Shown in pieces: positions 2,334 through 36,829 of a DNA stretch of 36,829 nt. Source of the stretch: a virus. Numbering within the stretch: the first letter of the stretch is position 1; each line of letters begins with the position of its first letter. The stretch spans positions 1 to 36,829 of IMG/VR virus record IMGVR_UViG_3300032268_000161, one strand, 5' to 3'. A program made the position numbers and the translations under genes. The notes beneath the pieces are model-generated. The model searched no databases and was not told the origin of the DNA. It saw nothing but the letters and a program-made list of their open reading frames with translations.

Positions 2334-2365
2334 CCCCCTAGCTCAACACTAGGGGGTTTTTTTTT
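2334..2365 (+). terminator. Intrinsic terminator pointing against the operon
   Basis: CCCCCTAG (2334-2341) pairs perfectly with CTAGGGGG (2349-2356) around a 7-base loop and is followed on the plus strand by nine T. By shape it is a strong rho-independent terminator for plus-strand transcription, yet both flanking genes run on the minus strand. Read on the minus strand it is a hairpin preceded by an A-run, between the polymerase stop codon and the primase ribosome binding site. Confidence 0.75.
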
Positions 2366-4334
2366 ATTTGCCGTACCGTTGCATTGTTGCTATTTCTACG
2401 CCCAAAGGGATGCCTTTAGCCCACTCAGGTGGGGTACACATTATGCGCTCCATTTCAAGGGCTACTGCTTCGGGTCTATCTGTTTCGACCACAATTTCAT
2501 CATGGACGTGTAATACCACATCATCCAATTCACGCAAAGAATGTCTAAGTAAATCATTTGCAACCGCTTGGGTAATGTTTTCACAGGCTAAACCTTTCCA
2601 TAATCTTGCTCTAGGCCATTCTTTAGCATCGGCTGCGGGTTTCCATGCTGCCTTAGCGTACGTGACACCATCGGCGTCTAACTTGGCAAACGGGTAACAA
2701 AGAACGCGCCCAGAAGGTAAAGAATACCAAAGATGCTGACCGTCGTACATATAGGTTACCCTACCCGCCGAGAACTCATGGTTTTTGTTCCGCATCGCCC
2801 TTGTATACGCCGACTCAAGGCTCTGCCAATATGGTACAGCCCACGGATTTGCCAAACGCCACCCTGCCACCATGCGCTTGGCTTGGGGTTCAGGTAGCAA
2901 GATGCCATATACCCTACCCATTGCAGCAAACGCGCCCACACCGCCTGCAAAGCCACAGGCTAACTCTTGAACTTTGCCGATTTGTCGCTGTTCACTGTCA
3001 ACGTCAGCGACGGGGATATGGAAGGTTGCGGAAGCGTTAACCCGATAGACGTCCTCTCCGCGTTCAAAAAGCGATAGCTTCTGAATACCGGCGTCGGAAT
3101 TGGAGAGCCAGGGGTTGACCCTTGCTTCGATTCCTGACCAGTCGGCAACGACGAGGGACTTTCCCACAGCGGGTACCAAAGCTGGCCTAAGCATCCCTTT
3201 GAGGACGTCGGTAACCCTTCGTCCAAAGGCAGGGACAATTGAGTGGCCTCTAACCATAGCTTGTCGAGTGGCGTCGGGATCCTTAGCGCATTTGCGGGTA
3301 AAGTTGTGGACTTGAGCGCCATAAGAACTTGCTCTGCCCGTGGCAGACCCACCAGCAAACACAAACGCGCCACGTACTCGGTGATCTTCTTCATCGGCTA
3401 GCTCCGTTAATCTCTTGAATTTTGCAACACTAGACGCCCATAGGTCGTCCGCACATTGAATAACATCTGCAACTTCCGCTGGTATTTCATCGGGGTTTTC
3501 TTCAGCAAGAATAAGTAGGTTAGCTCGAACTGTTTTGTCGATCGAATATTTTTTATCGCCATCTTTATAGTTTTCCATGAGTTTTTTAGCCTCGTCGCCA
3601 ACACGGGCAAGTACCCATTCTTTCATGCGAGGTGAGCGCACCGATGATATTTCGCCTTGAGTTATCTCAGATACTAGGTTCTCGATCTCTGCAAGCTCGT
3701 GGCCTGCATAACGGATCGCCGATTCAGCTAATGGCTTATCTAGTAACACGCCGCGATCATTGATGCGCTCATTAACATGATAGTCCATAAGCTCATCAGT
3801 TGATAACTCTCGCATGGCTTGTGAGATGGCGCGCATTGCCCGCACGTCTTGCAGGGCGTAGTTAGCCATTTCTGCCATCAAGGTGGGATCTGTATTAAAT
3901 GTACCATCTGCCTTGGGAATACACAACAAACGGATCAATTGCTTGCCCCGGTGGTCTTTCTTCATGCTACTGCTAGCAAAACGGCCAACGTCCTCAAGTG
4001 AGCCTGGCGCGCAGTTGGCACGGGCTTGCGCTGCTGTGCAGTACCACTGCTCTAGCTTGGGCGTTGGCACACCAAAGTCAGGACATAAAACGTACTCGGT
4101 AATCAGGCGGTCAAAGCCTGCGTTGTGCGCTCTAATCTGACCACCTGCAACGATTAGGTCAATCACCTGTTGCGGAAACGGTTGGTCAGGCGTCCACAAG
4201 GCTACCTCCTCATCATTGATGGCATACGCCATGCAGATAACTTCGGTGCTAGGATCTTGCGCATAGTTGTACCCGCCGCGGCTAGGTAAGTCGCAACGGC
4301 TACGGGTTTCGTAATCAAGCCAAAGTATGTTCAT
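2364..4334 (-). CDS. DNA polymerase, family A, with 3'-5' exonuclease
   Basis: Replicative DNA polymerase of 656 residues. The N-terminal DnaQ-like proofreading domain has exo I as D7-Y-E9, exo II in HNAGFD (70-75) and exo III in Y159-xxx-D163. The polymerase domain has an SATGRASS region (330-337), motif A ADWSGIEAR (397-405), motif B with R450, K454 and GFAGG (461-465), and motif C VHDE (610-613). There is no 5'-3' exonuclease domain, as usual for phage family A polymerases. ATG at 4334 is the natural start. It sits between the ssDNA-binding-type gene and the primase-helicase in the replication operon. The phage also encodes a clamp-like protein at 34,369, which could be its processivity factor (inference). 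Confidence 0.95.
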   Translation of the reverse strand: MNILWLDYETRSRCDLPSRGGYNYAQDPSTEVICMAYAINDEEVALWTPDQPFPQQVIDLIVAGGQIRAHNAGFDRLITEYVLCPDFGVPTPKLEQWYCTAAQARANCAPGSLEDVGRFASSSMKKDHRGKQLIRLLCIPKADGTFNTDPTLMAEMANYALQDVRAMRAISQAMRELSTDELMDYHVNERINDRGVLLDKPLAESAIRYAGHELAEIENLVSEITQGEISSVRSPRMKEWVLARVGDEAKKLMENYKDGDKKYSIDKTVRANLLILAEENPDEIPAEVADVIQCADDLWASSVAKFKRLTELADEEDHRVRGAFVFAGGSATGRASSYGAQVHNFTRKCAKDPDATRQAMVRGHSIVPAFGRRVTDVLKGMLRPALVPAVGKSLVVADWSGIEARVNPWLSNSDAGIQKLSLFERGEDVYRVNASATFHIPVADVDSEQRQIGKVQELACGFAGGVGAFAAMGRVYGILLPEPQAKRMVAGWRLANPWAVPYWQSLESAYTRAMRNKNHEFSAGRVTYMYDGQHLWYSLPSGRVLCYPFAKLDADGVTYAKAAWKPAADAKEWPRARLWKGLACENITQAVANDLLRHSLRELDDVVLHVHDEIVVETDRPEAVALEMERIMCTPPEWAKGIPLGVEIATMQRYGK

Positions 4335-26081: not shown

Positions 26082-28097
26082 TTAGAATGTGTACCATTGG
26101 GTAGTGGTAGTAGCCACTAATTCAATGGTTAATCCTGCAATCAATGTAAAAGCAGCGTTAGCCGCTAAAGCATTAATAGTGCCGCCTGTGGCTGGGTAAA
26201 TACTTAATGTATCTAAACTATCTGAGTTTCTAATTAGGATACGCATACCAGCTACCGCAGTTGGCAGTCTTACTCCAGCAGCCGCAGCCGTTACTACAGT
26301 CACATTATTTATATTAGAAACTAACCCAGTAGCACCTGCTTGGTCTGTCCCAGCCGCACTTACTGCCGCACTAATACTGTTAATTACTAAGCCGTTTAGG
26401 GTAGTTGTGCTAGTTGCGCCTGATACCGCAGAACCAATGTTAATAGCAGTAGTAGAACCTGATACACCAGCCGTACCAATATTTAATGTTTTTGTTGTTG
26501 CATTAGCAGTAGCACCAGTACCTAAATTTAATGTTTGTGCGGCTGTTGATTGACCAACAGTAATTGCACCAGTTTGGGAAGTGCCACCTATAGTAGTTGT
26601 TCCAGTTGTGGCAGAAGTTCCAAGTGCTGTTGTGCTTGATGTTGTACCCTGTAATGTTATGGTTGAACTAGCAGTTAAAGTACCGCTAATACTTGTTGTT
26701 CCAACTGTAAGGTTTCCAGCAGTTAAAGCGGCATCTATATTGGCATTGCCATATACTGCTAAGTTACCTTGTACCCTAGCGTTGCTAGTTGTATTAAATA
26801 CATCGGTTACTGCACTTATTGAGTTAGTTGCTGTGTTGTATTGAAATACTGTGTCGTTTGTTTGACCAGCCATGTAAACACGATTAGCGGCAGTAGAATC
26901 AATAAACAATCCATTTGGGTTGGTATCTTGAAAACCAACATAAAACGAATTTTCAAATACTGCGGTAGAAACATTAAATGCAGTCCCAAGCGCATATTGG
27001 CTAATATCGTCACCATTTGCACCAAGAATCCACATAGTTAAACCATCGGCACTAAGGTTTACTTGGTTTGGTGTACCGTCTTGTGATGCAACGCTGAATG
27101 AAATACTTGCATAAGAAGCAGTAGAAACATCACAAGCCGTACCTAAAGTGTATTGAAATACTGTGTCATTAGTTGACCCAATCACATACATAATTGTGCC
27201 ATCAGATTTAAACCAAAGACCAGTTGGGCTAGTTTCTTGCGAGGTTACGCTAAACGACTTTGATGCGTAAGTTGCAGTAGAAATATCAAAAGCAGATGAT
27301 AGTGTGTATTGAAATACAGTATCGTTAGCTGAACCCATGATAAACATGGACAATCCATCAGGTTTAAAGAAAATATCTTGAGGGTTAGAATCTTGTGATG
27401 CAGTAGAAAACAACCTTACAAAAGTAGCTGTGGATATATCAAAAGCAGTTGATAGCGTATATTGGTTTACATCATCGCCTGTAGAACCATTGACATACAT
27501 ATTTAAACCATCAGGACTAAGGAATAATCCAGTAGGAGCATTTTCTTCAGTAGCAACAGATTTACTTAAACCTGAGTAATTCCAGCCAGTAATGCCTGTG
27601 TTTGGTGCTATTTCTGCATCTGTTCCGCTAGTAACAATGTCTACTGTAGTAAATGTACCTGCTTTGGGTGTTATTGAGCCTATGGTTATGTTGTCCATTT
27701 CTCCAACAAAAGTAGGCGCAATTTCAACCGAATTAACACCTGTAGGCTTTATGTGTACATGACCTGTACCAGTAGGGCTAATGTCTATTTGTGCGTTTGC
27801 ACCATTAATATTTGTAGCTACAGCAATAGTGACATTATCGCCACCGCCAGCACCCATGCTAATTTGAGTTGTGCCACCTGAGTTTCTAAGTGCTAAACCA
27901 GCAGAGTTTGTAGCTTGTACTACTGGAGTAGTAACGCTAGTAAGCGTCGCCGTTCCACCAGTAATGGCTACAGCGTTGGCATTTTGTTCTGCCATTGTTC
28001 CTACGCCTGCTAACGTATGGTTAGCGTTCCAGGCAGTTGCGCCTGTAGCGCTAAAAGTACCGTCGGCAGGCGTTGAATGGTTGACAGTTATTGGCAT
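26082..28097 (-). CDS. Beta-propeller fibre / head-fibre protein
   Basis: A 671-residue protein. Residues 1-185 are Thr/Ala/Gly-rich beta repeats. Residues about 188-435 hold five repeats of about 51 residues with the consensus P-x-G-L-x-x-x-x-D-G-x-x-M-Y-V-x-G-S-x-x-D-x-V-x-Q-Y-T-L-x-x-A-F-D-V-S-T-A, a beta-propeller blade pattern. Residues 450-600 are N-I-G/T-I-G triple-beta-like repeats, and the end (LPTAVAGMRILIRN ... TQWYTF) matches the decoration-type domain in the 132-residue protein. Placed among head genes, it is more likely a capsid-bound fibre or adhesin than the main tail fibre (inference). Confidence 0.75.
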   Translation of the reverse strand: MPITVNHSTPADGTFSATGATAWNANHTLAGVGTMAEQNANAVAITGGTATLTSVTTPVVQATNSAGLALRNSGGTTQISMGAGGGDNVTIAVATNINGANAQIDISPTGTGHVHIKPTGVNSVEIAPTFVGEMDNITIGSITPKAGTFTTVDIVTSGTDAEIAPNTGITGWNYSGLSKSVATEENAPTGLFLSPDGLNMYVNGSTGDDVNQYTLSTAFDISTATFVRLFSTASQDSNPQDIFFKPDGLSMFIMGSANDTVFQYTLSSAFDISTATYASKSFSVTSQETSPTGLWFKSDGTIMYVIGSTNDTVFQYTLGTACDVSTASYASISFSVASQDGTPNQVNLSADGLTMWILGANGDDISQYALGTAFNVSTAVFENSFYVGFQDTNPNGLFIDSTAANRVYMAGQTNDTVFQYNTATNSISAVTDVFNTTSNARVQGNLAVYGNANIDAALTAGNLTVGTTSISGTLTASSTITLQGTTSSTTALGTSATTGTTTIGGTSQTGAITVGQSTAAQTLNLGTGATANATTKTLNIGTAGVSGSTTAINIGSAVSGATSTTTLNGLVINSISAAVSAAGTDQAGATGLVSNINNVTVVTAAAAGVRLPTAVAGMRILIRNSDSLDTLSIYPATGGTINALAANAAFTLIAGLTIELVATTTTQWYTF
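26792..27536 (-). repeat. Five-fold ~153-bp coding repeat (propeller blades)
   Basis: The DNA encoding the propeller contains five diverged tandem units of about 153 bp; the YQFVTD-type core (TATTGAAATACTGTGTC on the plus strand) recurs near 26,840, 27,150 and 27,305. Similarity at DNA level suggests fairly recent duplication and a potential for blade-number change by recombination. Confidence 0.7.
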
Positions 28098-33669: not shown

Positions 33670-33697
33670 TGGCCGGCGGGCGCGTAGCTTGTGGACA
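33670..33697. repeat. 28-bp direct repeat, copy 1
   Basis: Bases 33670-33697 (TGGCCGGCGGGCGCGTAGCT followed by TGTGGACA) recur exactly 80 bp downstream. Each copy joins a GC-rich block to a DnaA-box-like TTGTGGACA. Confidence 0.9.
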
Positions 33698-33715
33698 TTG
33701 TGGATATATCCACAA
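33698..33715. repeat. 18-bp perfect palindrome of two box motifs
   Basis: TTGTGGATATATCCACAA is its own reverse complement; it consists of two DnaA-box-like motifs head to head without a spacer. It directly follows the first 28-bp repeat. Confidence 0.9.
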
Positions 33716-33749
33716 GTATTGGGCGCGAAACACCAGGGCGTTTTACACA

Positions 33750-33777
33750 TGGCCGGCGGGCGCGTAGCTTGTGGACA
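33750..33777. repeat. 28-bp direct repeat, copy 2
   Basis: Exact second copy of the repeat at 33,670. A degenerate third copy (GGCGGCGCGGGCGCGATAGCT) starts near 33,837 and again leads into GTGGACA motifs. Confidence 0.9.
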
Positions 33778-33970
33778 ATATGGACATGGTGTTTTTAAAT
33801 TGTCCAAATTGTCCACAAATATTCTGGTTTGAACTGGCGGCGCGGGCGCGATAGCTGCACAACGTGGACAATATGGACATTGTGGACACCCCCTGTTTAG
33901 TCGCTGGCTTATAACATTGCGCGGCGGTAACCATATAAATATACAAATCCATAGAATAGGTTAATTAGAA

Positions 33971-34077
33971 TTGTCCACAATATCCACAACCAAGCTGGCT
34001 TTGGCTCTCATAGCATATTGGCATTGTCCACAACACTATCCACAACCAGCCCACAACCGCCGCCAAATTGTCCACAA
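33971..34077 (+). other. Cluster of five same-strand DnaA-box-like motifs
   Basis: TTGTCCACAA at 33,971, 34,024 and 34,068, and TATCCACAA at 33,981 and 34,037, all in the same direction, lie within 107 bp just before an AT-rich segment. Adjacent boxes at 33,971-33,989 are directly joined. Confidence 0.75.
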
Positions 34078-34198: not shown

Positions 34199-34339
34199 AT
34201 GACTCAAAACCAATTTATATACCTATGCAACGAAAGCAATATAGAGCCCGCGTTAGCTCTCGAAAATGACAACATCGTGGCCGCGATCAAGGCTGGCGAC
34301 GTTGAGCTGGTTCAGTTTTTATTAGATAACGAGTTCTAA
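34199..34339 (+). CDS. Small early protein (46 aa)
   Basis: MTQNQFIYLCNESNIEPALA, then LENDNIVAAIKAGDVELVQF and LLDNEF. Helical and acidic, with an ankyrin-like I-K-A-G-D-V-E-L-V-Q-F-L-L stretch. GAAAGGCAACACCAAA precedes ATG 34199. It is the first gene of the early cluster, 29 bp before the clamp-like gene. Short proteins of this look (Q-F-I-x-L-C ... E-P-A-L-A-L-E) recur in phages; role unknown. Confidence 0.75.
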   Translation: MTQNQFIYLCNESNIEPALALENDNIVAAIKAGDVELVQFLLDNEF

Positions 34340-34368: not shown

Positions 34369-35022
34369 ATGCAAAATCAATTTCACGTATCACAATCAAC
34401 CCTCGACGCCATGCTTTTATTAGCTGGTAAAAAGGATATTCGCTACTATTTAAACGGTTTAAACATCGAATGGAATAGCGAACTAACCCGCGTAATCGCT
34501 TGCGACGGCCACAAACTAGGTATTTTTCAGGCCGCCGCGCCCGACAATCGCGGCGCGGGTTCGATCACAATACCCCGCGACGCCATCGAATTATTACCAA
34601 AAAAAGCGGGTATTTTAACTTTTACGCAAGTAAGCGAAACCCATTGGATGATTGATTGCGGCAACGGCGCATTTAAGTTTGCGCCATGCGAATCTAAGTA
34701 CCCCGATTTTCGCCGCGTAGTTCACCCAATACAAACCGCCGGCACAAGCGGCCTGGCTGCTGGTTTTAATCTCGAATACTTAAACCAGTTCGAAAAATGC
34801 GGCAACTTGTTGGCTGGTTCTAAGTTACGCGTAGGCAACCGCTTACACCTGCACCATAACGGCGATGGCGCGGCCTTAGTGTTGCTGAATTGCGTTGATG
34901 GGTTCGCGGGCGTGGTAATGCCAATGCGTGATTCTGTTGGCAGCTCTGGCGCGTTATTCCCTGCCGAACTGGTTAGCGATCTAGCAGGGCAACCAGCAGC
35001 CGCCGAACCCGTAGCAGCCTAA
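34369..35022 (+). CDS. Reduced DnaN-type sliding clamp protein
   Basis: A 217-residue protein clearly related to bacterial beta clamp. IRYYLNG (24-30), CDGHKLG (45-51), ITIPRDAIEL (66-75) and YPDFRRV (111-117) match domain 2 of DnaN almost word for word. GFNLEYL (132-138) and VVMPMR (182-187) match the second half of domain 3, including the C-terminal MPMR that lines the client-binding cleft. Domain 1 and the first half of domain 3 are missing, and a 30-residue Ala/Pro tail is added. DnaN is about 366 residues. It may be a processivity clamp for the phage family A polymerase, or may interfere with the host clamp. AAGTAAGG lies upstream of ATG 34369. Confidence 0.85.
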   Translation: MQNQFHVSQSTLDAMLLLAGKKDIRYYLNGLNIEWNSELTRVIACDGHKLGIFQAAAPDNRGAGSITIPRDAIELLPKKAGILTFTQVSETHWMIDCGNGAFKFAPCESKYPDFRRVVHPIQTAGTSGLAAGFNLEYLNQFEKCGNLLAGSKLRVGNRLHLHHNGDGAALVLLNCVDGFAGVVMPMRDSVGSSGALFPAELVSDLAGQPAAAEPVAA

Positions 35023-35092: not shown

Positions 35093-35413
35093 ATGAAAAC
35101 AACTGTAAACCTATACGATTTTCGCCGCGAATTCGCACAATGCCGGCCTGATAATTTTTCTTATGAGGGTTTAGCTCTGTTATTTGACTATATCGAAGAT
35201 CTTGAGCGCGATAGTGGCGAAGACTATGAACTTGATGTAATCGGCCTATGCTGTGAATGGTGCGAGGATACGCCGGAAAATATCGCAGCCAACTATTCGA
35301 TAGATATAGAAGACGACGGCAACGCCCTAGCTAACGTGCTAGATCATTTAAACGATGAAACGATGGTGGCCGGTGCAACTGACGCCGGCACAATCGTTTA
35401 CCTAGCATATTAA
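35093..35413 (+). CDS. Acidic conserved-type phage protein (106 aa)
   Basis: MKTTVNLYDFRREFAQCRPD, then NFSYEGLALLFDYIEDLERD, DVIGLCCEWCEDTPENIAAN and a C-terminal beta part ending GTIVYLAY. Very acidic, with four Cys in the centre and N-terminal region (LCCEWCE). Proteins with the V-N-L-Y-D-F-R ... F-S-Y-E-x-L-x-L-L-F-x-Y-x-E motif are seen in many proteobacterial phages; the role is not established, and strong acidity would suit a DNA mimic (inference). ATG 35093 follows GAAAGTAAACCAAA. Confidence 0.8.
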   Translation: MKTTVNLYDFRREFAQCRPDNFSYEGLALLFDYIEDLERDSGEDYELDVIGLCCEWCEDTPENIAANYSIDIEDDGNALANVLDHLNDETMVAGATDAGTIVYLAY

Positions 35414-36688: not shown

Positions 36689-36716
36689 AAAAAGCCCCTC
36701 TACGGGGCTTTTTTAT
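36689..36716. terminator. Bidirectional terminator at the genome junction
   Basis: AGCCCC (36693-36698) and GGGGCT (36704-36709) form a stem with a five-base loop, flanked by an A-run on the left and a T-run on the right, so it can end both the rightward early cluster and, across the circle, the leftward replication operon that stops at position 10. Confidence 0.85.
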
Positions 36717-36829
36717 TATTTGACTAACACCATTTTGGGCGGCGGGTTCTCCTCTACCATGCGGCGCAAATCCGATTTACCATAATCGGCCAAATCAGGG
36801 GCGCAAAATATATGTTTCTTAGTATCAAA
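36707..36829. repeat. Terminal direct repeat, right copy
   Basis: Identical to bases 1-123. It repeats the last part of the primase-helicase gene, so the real genome is one unit shorter by this length. Confidence 0.9.

Follow-up and report, generated by a model that had tools for sequence, protein, structure and literature searches.

A predicted half-clamp of phages that keeps the client-binding cleft of the bacterial beta clamp

The phage genome analysed here encodes a protein of 217 amino acids that, judged from profile comparisons and predicted structures, is a relative of the bacterial beta clamp DnaN composed of the whole of domain 2, the second half of domain 3 and a short tail. The conserved cleft of this protein, referred to below as the mini-clamp, makes it likely that it binds clamp-binding motifs. 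We assign a probability of about 0.5 to the reading that it is an off-DNA, non-ring cleft module acting on host proteins.

The window, i.e. the whole stretch of DNA that was analysed, comprises the entire IMG/VR record IMGVR_UViG_3300032268_000161 (36,829 bases). Identical 123-base direct repeats are present at both termini (1-123 and 36707-36829), and the window therefore probably represents a complete phage genome. In the group to which this phage belongs, the mini-clamp gene is located between the terminase genes and small early genes. The relevant features of the window are as follows.

2364..4334, minus strand: family A DNA polymerase of the phage (PF00476, 61.5 bits; phrog_17)
34199..34339, plus strand: small ORF, 46 aa, just 5' of the mini-clamp gene (ORF list)
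34369..35022, plus strand: predicted mini beta-clamp gene, 217 aa, ATG start (ORF; PF02767; phrog_3007; AlphaFold2; dN/dS)
34378..34536, plus strand: domain 2, predicted first beta-alpha-beta motif, residues 4-56, with cleft elements R25-L28 and C45-L50 (AlphaFold2; hhalign to DnaN 126-249)
34558..34680, plus strand: domain 2, predicted second motif, residues 64-104 (AlphaFold2 secondary structure)
34702..34719, plus strand: cleft segment PDFRRV, residues 112-117, equivalent to E. coli P242-V247 (P in 37/37 relatives, R in 32/37, V in 34/37; residue list of PMC11139829)
34762..34929, plus strand: predicted third motif, equivalent to the second half of DnaN domain 3, residues 132-187, with the cleft residues N134, Y137 and VVMPMR (hhalign; PF02768 in relatives; AlphaFold2)
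34930..35019, plus strand: C-terminal tail extending past the end of beta, residues 188-217, with FPAEL in this protein (sequence; pLDDT)
35093..35413, plus strand: small early ORF, 106 aa, phrog_9974 (function unknown), just 3' of the mini-clamp gene

The 46-aa ORF gave no match in a family search, and its spacing suggests that it is probably co-transcribed with the mini-clamp gene. The phrog_9974 ORF adjoins the mini-clamp gene in several relatives too. Directly upstream of the mini-clamp, at 33690-34076, there is a cluster of 9-base repeats (TTGTCCACA / ATATCCACA), often spaced 9 bases apart. Exact copies of TTGTCCACA occur five times in the window genome (expected, 0.25), all of them within 33770-34076. 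Relatives carry comparable arrays, in which the unit is either of the DnaA-box-like TTGTCCACA type or of another type (ATGACTAAC / CATGACTAC). Since the arrays are built of one or the other unit, this region resembles an origin or an operator whose specificity can be exchanged. The DnaA boxes were also considered as a sign of a role connected with DnaA/Hda; this was rejected, as TTGTCCACA is found in some phages and ATGACTAAC-like units in others, and the class of array is independent of the mini-clamp allele. Elsewhere in the window, at 26837-27347, the large ORF 26082-28097 contains ~156-base internal repeats (two 124-base copies and a 26-base unit present three times), which suggests that its product is a repetitive structural or tail protein.

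The relationship of the mini-clamp to DnaN was examined by several types of searches. In Pfam, the 217-aa protein matched DNA_pol3_beta_2 (PF02767, domain 2) over residues 14-113 with 30.5 bits (cut-off 27), and phmmer against the PDB matched beta clamps over domain 2 (E 5e-10). The phrog_3007 profile aligned from residue 5 to residue 188 with its positions 3-186 of 190 (E 1.2e-27). All of the DnaN motifs quoted in the sequence-only reading of this DNA were located within the 217 residues: DIRYYLNG (23-30), CDGHKLG (45-51), YPDFRRV (111-117) and VVMPMR (182-187). A profile of 37 aligned relatives was then compared by hhalign with 29 chromosomal DnaN sequences, the DnaN reference set being derived from a scan of genome contigs. 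Residues 4-119 corresponded to DnaN 126-249, i.e. to all of domain 2 (E 1e-32). The C-terminal part, when aligned alone, corresponded to DnaN 318-365 (E 3e-8) and covers only the second half of domain 3; the preceding half (~60 aa) is missing. The domain 3 model PF02768 matched the related proteins of Skate, Bas81 and pYD38-A only with model positions 64-121 of 121. One whole-length hhalign comparison had equated the helix of the third motif with the helix of the first half of domain 3, leaving only the last strand to the C-terminal half. This assignment was contradicted by the second profile comparison, by alignments of the helix alone and of the strands alone, and by PF02768.

The AlphaFold2 models of the window protein (pLDDT 89, pTM 0.81) and of relative L043, which is ~37% identical to it (pLDDT 92, pTM 0.85), both contain two complete domain 2 motifs and a third motif consisting of a helix and three strands. 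With VIA-align, 174 residues of the mini-clamp were superimposed on E. coli beta 124-366 at 2.3 Å, and both modelled members fitted many beta structures in one rigid alignment (166-176 residues, 2.1-2.6 Å). A single rigid superposition of this quality indicates that domain 2 and the domain 3 half are predicted to be arranged as in beta. The Foldseek whole-chain rmsd of 7-9 Å arises from an alignment forced across the gap. The tail is semi-ordered in the model (pLDDT 60-80); the tripeptide P-x-W occurs in 13 of the 37 tails of relatives, compared to 2.1 expected from shuffling. The profile matches, the modelled motifs and the superposition together uphold the earlier description of one and a half DnaN domains with three beta-alpha-beta motifs per chain, and the profile search against DnaN kept the protein within the clamp superfamily, with the second half of domain 3 only.

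A 2024 review lists 18 residues of beta that line the client pocket (subsites I and II; PMC11139829). Seventeen of these could be mapped onto the mini-clamp, and they are strongly conserved among the 37 aligned relatives; examples are R25, L28 and P112 (37/37), G47 (36), P185 (35) and H48, V117 and M184 (34 each). Because two of the motifs had served as search seeds, the conservation test was confined to the ten cleft columns outside them, which have a mean conservation of 0.80, compared to 0.48 for the remaining positions (p about 1e-5). In the superposition of the AlphaFold2 model, all client-pocket residues that can be placed adopt the native beta geometry. The proposal that the client cleft is exactly the retained part of the clamp thus agrees with the residues mapped, their conservation and their predicted arrangement.

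According to the profile match, the window protein is a member of phrog_3007, a family already present in databases. A tblastn search of GenBank phage records gave 65 matches with the window protein and about 290 with the Bas81 protein, and a scan of IMG/VR yielded at least 375 confirmed relatives; in both sets a minority may be full-length clamps. In PHROG, phrog_3007 is labelled 'RusA-like Holliday junction resolvase', a name that has spread into many RefSeq phage annotations (L008, L010 and others). This label looks wrong: a Pfam scan up to E 10 yielded DNA_pol3_beta_2 only, and in the Bcep781 record gp15 is noted as 'DNA Pol III b subunit fragment', the Rus note belonging to gp22. Depositors in GenBank often named the family 'DNA polymerase III beta subunit' or 'DNA clamp protein'. 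The record of Edwardsiella phage PEi21 (L173 4001-4528) shows two adjacent ORFs, gp53 and gp52, in place of a single mini-clamp gene, which would thus be split or frameshifted in this phage. A moron-like position recurs in Bcep781, Skate and TheodorHerzl (L008, L009, L170), where the mini-clamp gene lies on the opposite strand within a set of head or structural genes. One phage paper employs the mini-clamp gene as a marker and does not discuss its structure (PMC9901506). Our search of the freely accessible journal literature on truncated, mini- or half-clamps of phages found no dedicated paper; within this literature, the cleft-only half-clamp architecture is undescribed.

The genomic context of the family was examined in 26 carriers, some of whose IMG/VR records may be fragments; 15 of the 26 encode a family A polymerase, and the other 11, including the GenBank genomes of Skate, Bas81, pYD38-A and P400, gave no match to PF00476, phrog_17, PF07733, PF00136, phrog_1252 or phrog_262. 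IME_EC2 and LIET2, searched with three models, had no match to PF00476, phrog_1252 or phrog_262. In Bas81 a helicase, primase parts and an SSB are present, and a polymerase was not found. In BcepC6B, PEi21 and L076 the gene immediately upstream of the mini-clamp gene encodes a DNA polymerase, and in L083 a polymerase-exonuclease; such an arrangement suggests that the protein acts at the phage fork. The family A polymerase of the window phage is a possible client. Three candidate clamp-binding motifs in phage proteins were rejected: QKLSLF in PolA lies within the conserved family A fold just after motif A and varies freely in relatives, QLIQLF in the PolA of BcepC6B is lost in L076, TheodorHerzl and PEi21, and QLILF in TerS becomes QLCQF and similar sequences in relatives. 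Counts of clamp-binding motifs in the phage's own proteins showed no excess over shuffled sequences, and no conserved motif was found in these proteins, polymerases included, which mildly favours host clients.

Comparison of closely related phages showed that divergent mini-clamp alleles are swapped between near-identical genomes. The terL genes of L013 and L026 are 99% identical, while their mini-clamps share 45% identity; the DNA identity profile of this pair displays a block of ~0.8 kb at ~50%, with flanks mostly above 85%. Where terL identity between two phages was 90-95%, the mini-clamps had a median identity of 50%, compared to 88% for the primases. One would expect a dedicated partner of the phage polymerase to be inherited together with it, which is not required of a host-facing protein. 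It should be noted that terS and further small early genes are variable as well, and the swap can be explained alternatively by neutral mosaicism of the early region.

The loss of half of the parent protein and the word 'fragment' in the Bcep781 record could suggest a decaying or mis-assembled dnaN fragment without function. This is scarcely credible: the domain boundaries recur identically in hundreds of phages, the dN/dS values among close relatives (0.07-0.25) indicate purifying selection, the cleft is conserved, and in a tree 45 mini-clamps were separated from 16 chromosomal DnaN sequences with 100% bootstrap support (branch 1.13). The recurrence together with the purifying selection shows that this is not a decayed gene. 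The sequence-only reading had offered a ring of four subunits, whose arithmetic (four chains of three motifs, twelve motifs in total) does follow from the AlphaFold2 and hhalign results. Such a ring would probably have D2 symmetry, via paired domain 3 halves and paired domain 2 edges; in the inferred geometry the motifs run C-N-C in space, so that two kinds of two-fold contacts could close it. It would represent a new clamp architecture, with a stoichiometry not seen before, a cleft on every subunit and no dedicated loader. However, both halves of the canonical dimer interface are deleted: one is provided by domain 1, the other by the first half of domain 3, in which I272/L273/E298-E304 are situated. 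The mini-clamp therefore lacks the canonical head-to-tail interface. Domain 1 (PF00712) was found neither in the mini-clamp nor in the 26 sampled carrier genomes at E 0.01, and searches of these carriers for a clamp-loader gene (PF13177), and for domain 1 or the first half of domain 3 encoded elsewhere, were likewise negative. The helix of the third motif has a single hydrophobic face, with no second conserved face seen, and many carriers are without a recognisable polymerase. Long frames upstream of the gene in L081, L079 and L085, considered as natural tandem fusions of mini-clamps, proved to be non-homologous. Compared to the two-domain clamps that form trimers (PCNA, T4 gp45), the mini-clamp has one full domain and a half, and the best fold matches listed are all bacterial beta. 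A closed four-chain ring is disfavoured, and we regard it as very unlikely.

Without a ring or loader, the mini-clamp could serve the family A polymerase of the same phage as a processivity or tethering factor, sitting on DNA together with the polymerase as a monomer or dimer. The polymerase-adjacent genes mentioned above argue for this and against a host-client module; the presence of the polymerase in more than half of the sampled carriers also argues for it. Moreover, non-ring clamps that need no loader exist in herpesviruses (PMC9690074), and proteins of this family are less acidic than the corresponding segments of DnaN (mean net charge -0.2 vs -5.2). This charge is, however, not strongly positive, unlike that described for clamps of the UL42/UL44 type (PMC9690074). 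In addition, 11 of the 26 carriers lack a recognisable polymerase, the mini-clamp is swapped while the primase and polymerase stay conserved, and the polymerases carry no conserved clamp-binding motif; a polymerase partner is consequently possible but rather unlikely. The mini-clamp might instead bind the host clamp or clamp loader, for example by holding delta, and so shut down host replication early in infection. Monomeric beta variants are established traps for delta, and a non-dimerising subunit such as this one could act in the same way. The Leu-Phe plug of delta docks in subsite I of beta (PMC11139829), which is conserved in the mini-clamp, and the gene occupies an early-region position in the window. 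On the other hand, phages without a polymerase need the host Pol III and its loader, and in Bcep781 and TheodorHerzl the gene is placed among structural genes on the opposite strand. Shutdown of the host loader is accordingly a still less probable role than assistance to the phage polymerase.

The deletion of the ring-closing surfaces, the carriers without a polymerase and the allele swap favour a non-ring module for host peptides over a polymerase processivity factor. The inhibitor or adaptor that the sequence-only reading had named as the alternative to a ring fits better in the form of a competitor for clamp clients, and is the better lead. The mini-clamp would be a single, spatially continuous piece of beta, the smallest to contain the whole client cleft, stripped of the surfaces that close the ring, and would fold as a free module. 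Its cleft would probably take the QLxLF-type motifs of proteins whose usual docking site is the host clamp; candidate clients are the clamp-loader delta, Pol III alpha, Hda, MutL/MutS, Pol II/IV/V, and ligase or Pol I. Early in infection such clients would be drawn off the host clamp or toward the phage DNA. It counts against this reading that phages relying on host Pol III would gain nothing if Pol III or its loader were strongly decoyed, and in these the client would need to be another protein; it may differ from phage to phage.

A free-standing clamp docking pocket thus appears to be encoded, under a wrong or vague name, by hundreds of phages, among them members of the BASEL collection that infect E. 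coli K-12. If the mini-clamp binds clamp clients off DNA, it would be a natural tool to rewire replication, repair or the control of initiation, and could guide the search for antibacterial inhibitors directed at the cleft.

The closest counterparts of the window protein are the phrog_3007 proteins of described phages (Bcep781 gp15, Skate gp41, Bas81_0046, BcepC6B gp31, TheodorHerzl gp07), which have the same predicted architecture and cleft in 170-225 aa. Identity is about 30%, and the window type has a C-terminal tail of ~30 residues, whereas the proteins of Skate, Bas81 and Roufvirus end at MPMRL or MPMRI. Bacterial DnaN has in common with the mini-clamp the client cleft, the folds of domain 2 and the C-terminal half of domain 3, and the way in which these parts are placed relative to each other; domain 1, the first half of domain 3 and the dimer interface are missing from the phage protein, and the tail has been added. 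A natural shortened beta that keeps the C-terminal part is also found in E. coli: beta*, a UV-inducible form reportedly described by Skaliter and Livneh in 1996, is said to contain the full domains 2 and 3 and to form a trimer. The mini-clamp has only half of domain 3 and is the product of a separate phage gene. The staphylococcal phage protein Gp168 has a non-clamp fold and binds the clamp. Like this inhibitor (PDB 7evp), the mini-clamp would be directed by the phage against the clamp system of the host, but it is itself a piece of a clamp. A possible functional parallel is provided by herpesvirus UL42/UL44, which have a clamp fold and work without a closed ring or a loader; unlike the mini-clamp, however, they belong to another branch and are built of two PCNA-like domains, with a strongly positive DNA-binding surface and a dedicated polymerase partner (PMC9690074).
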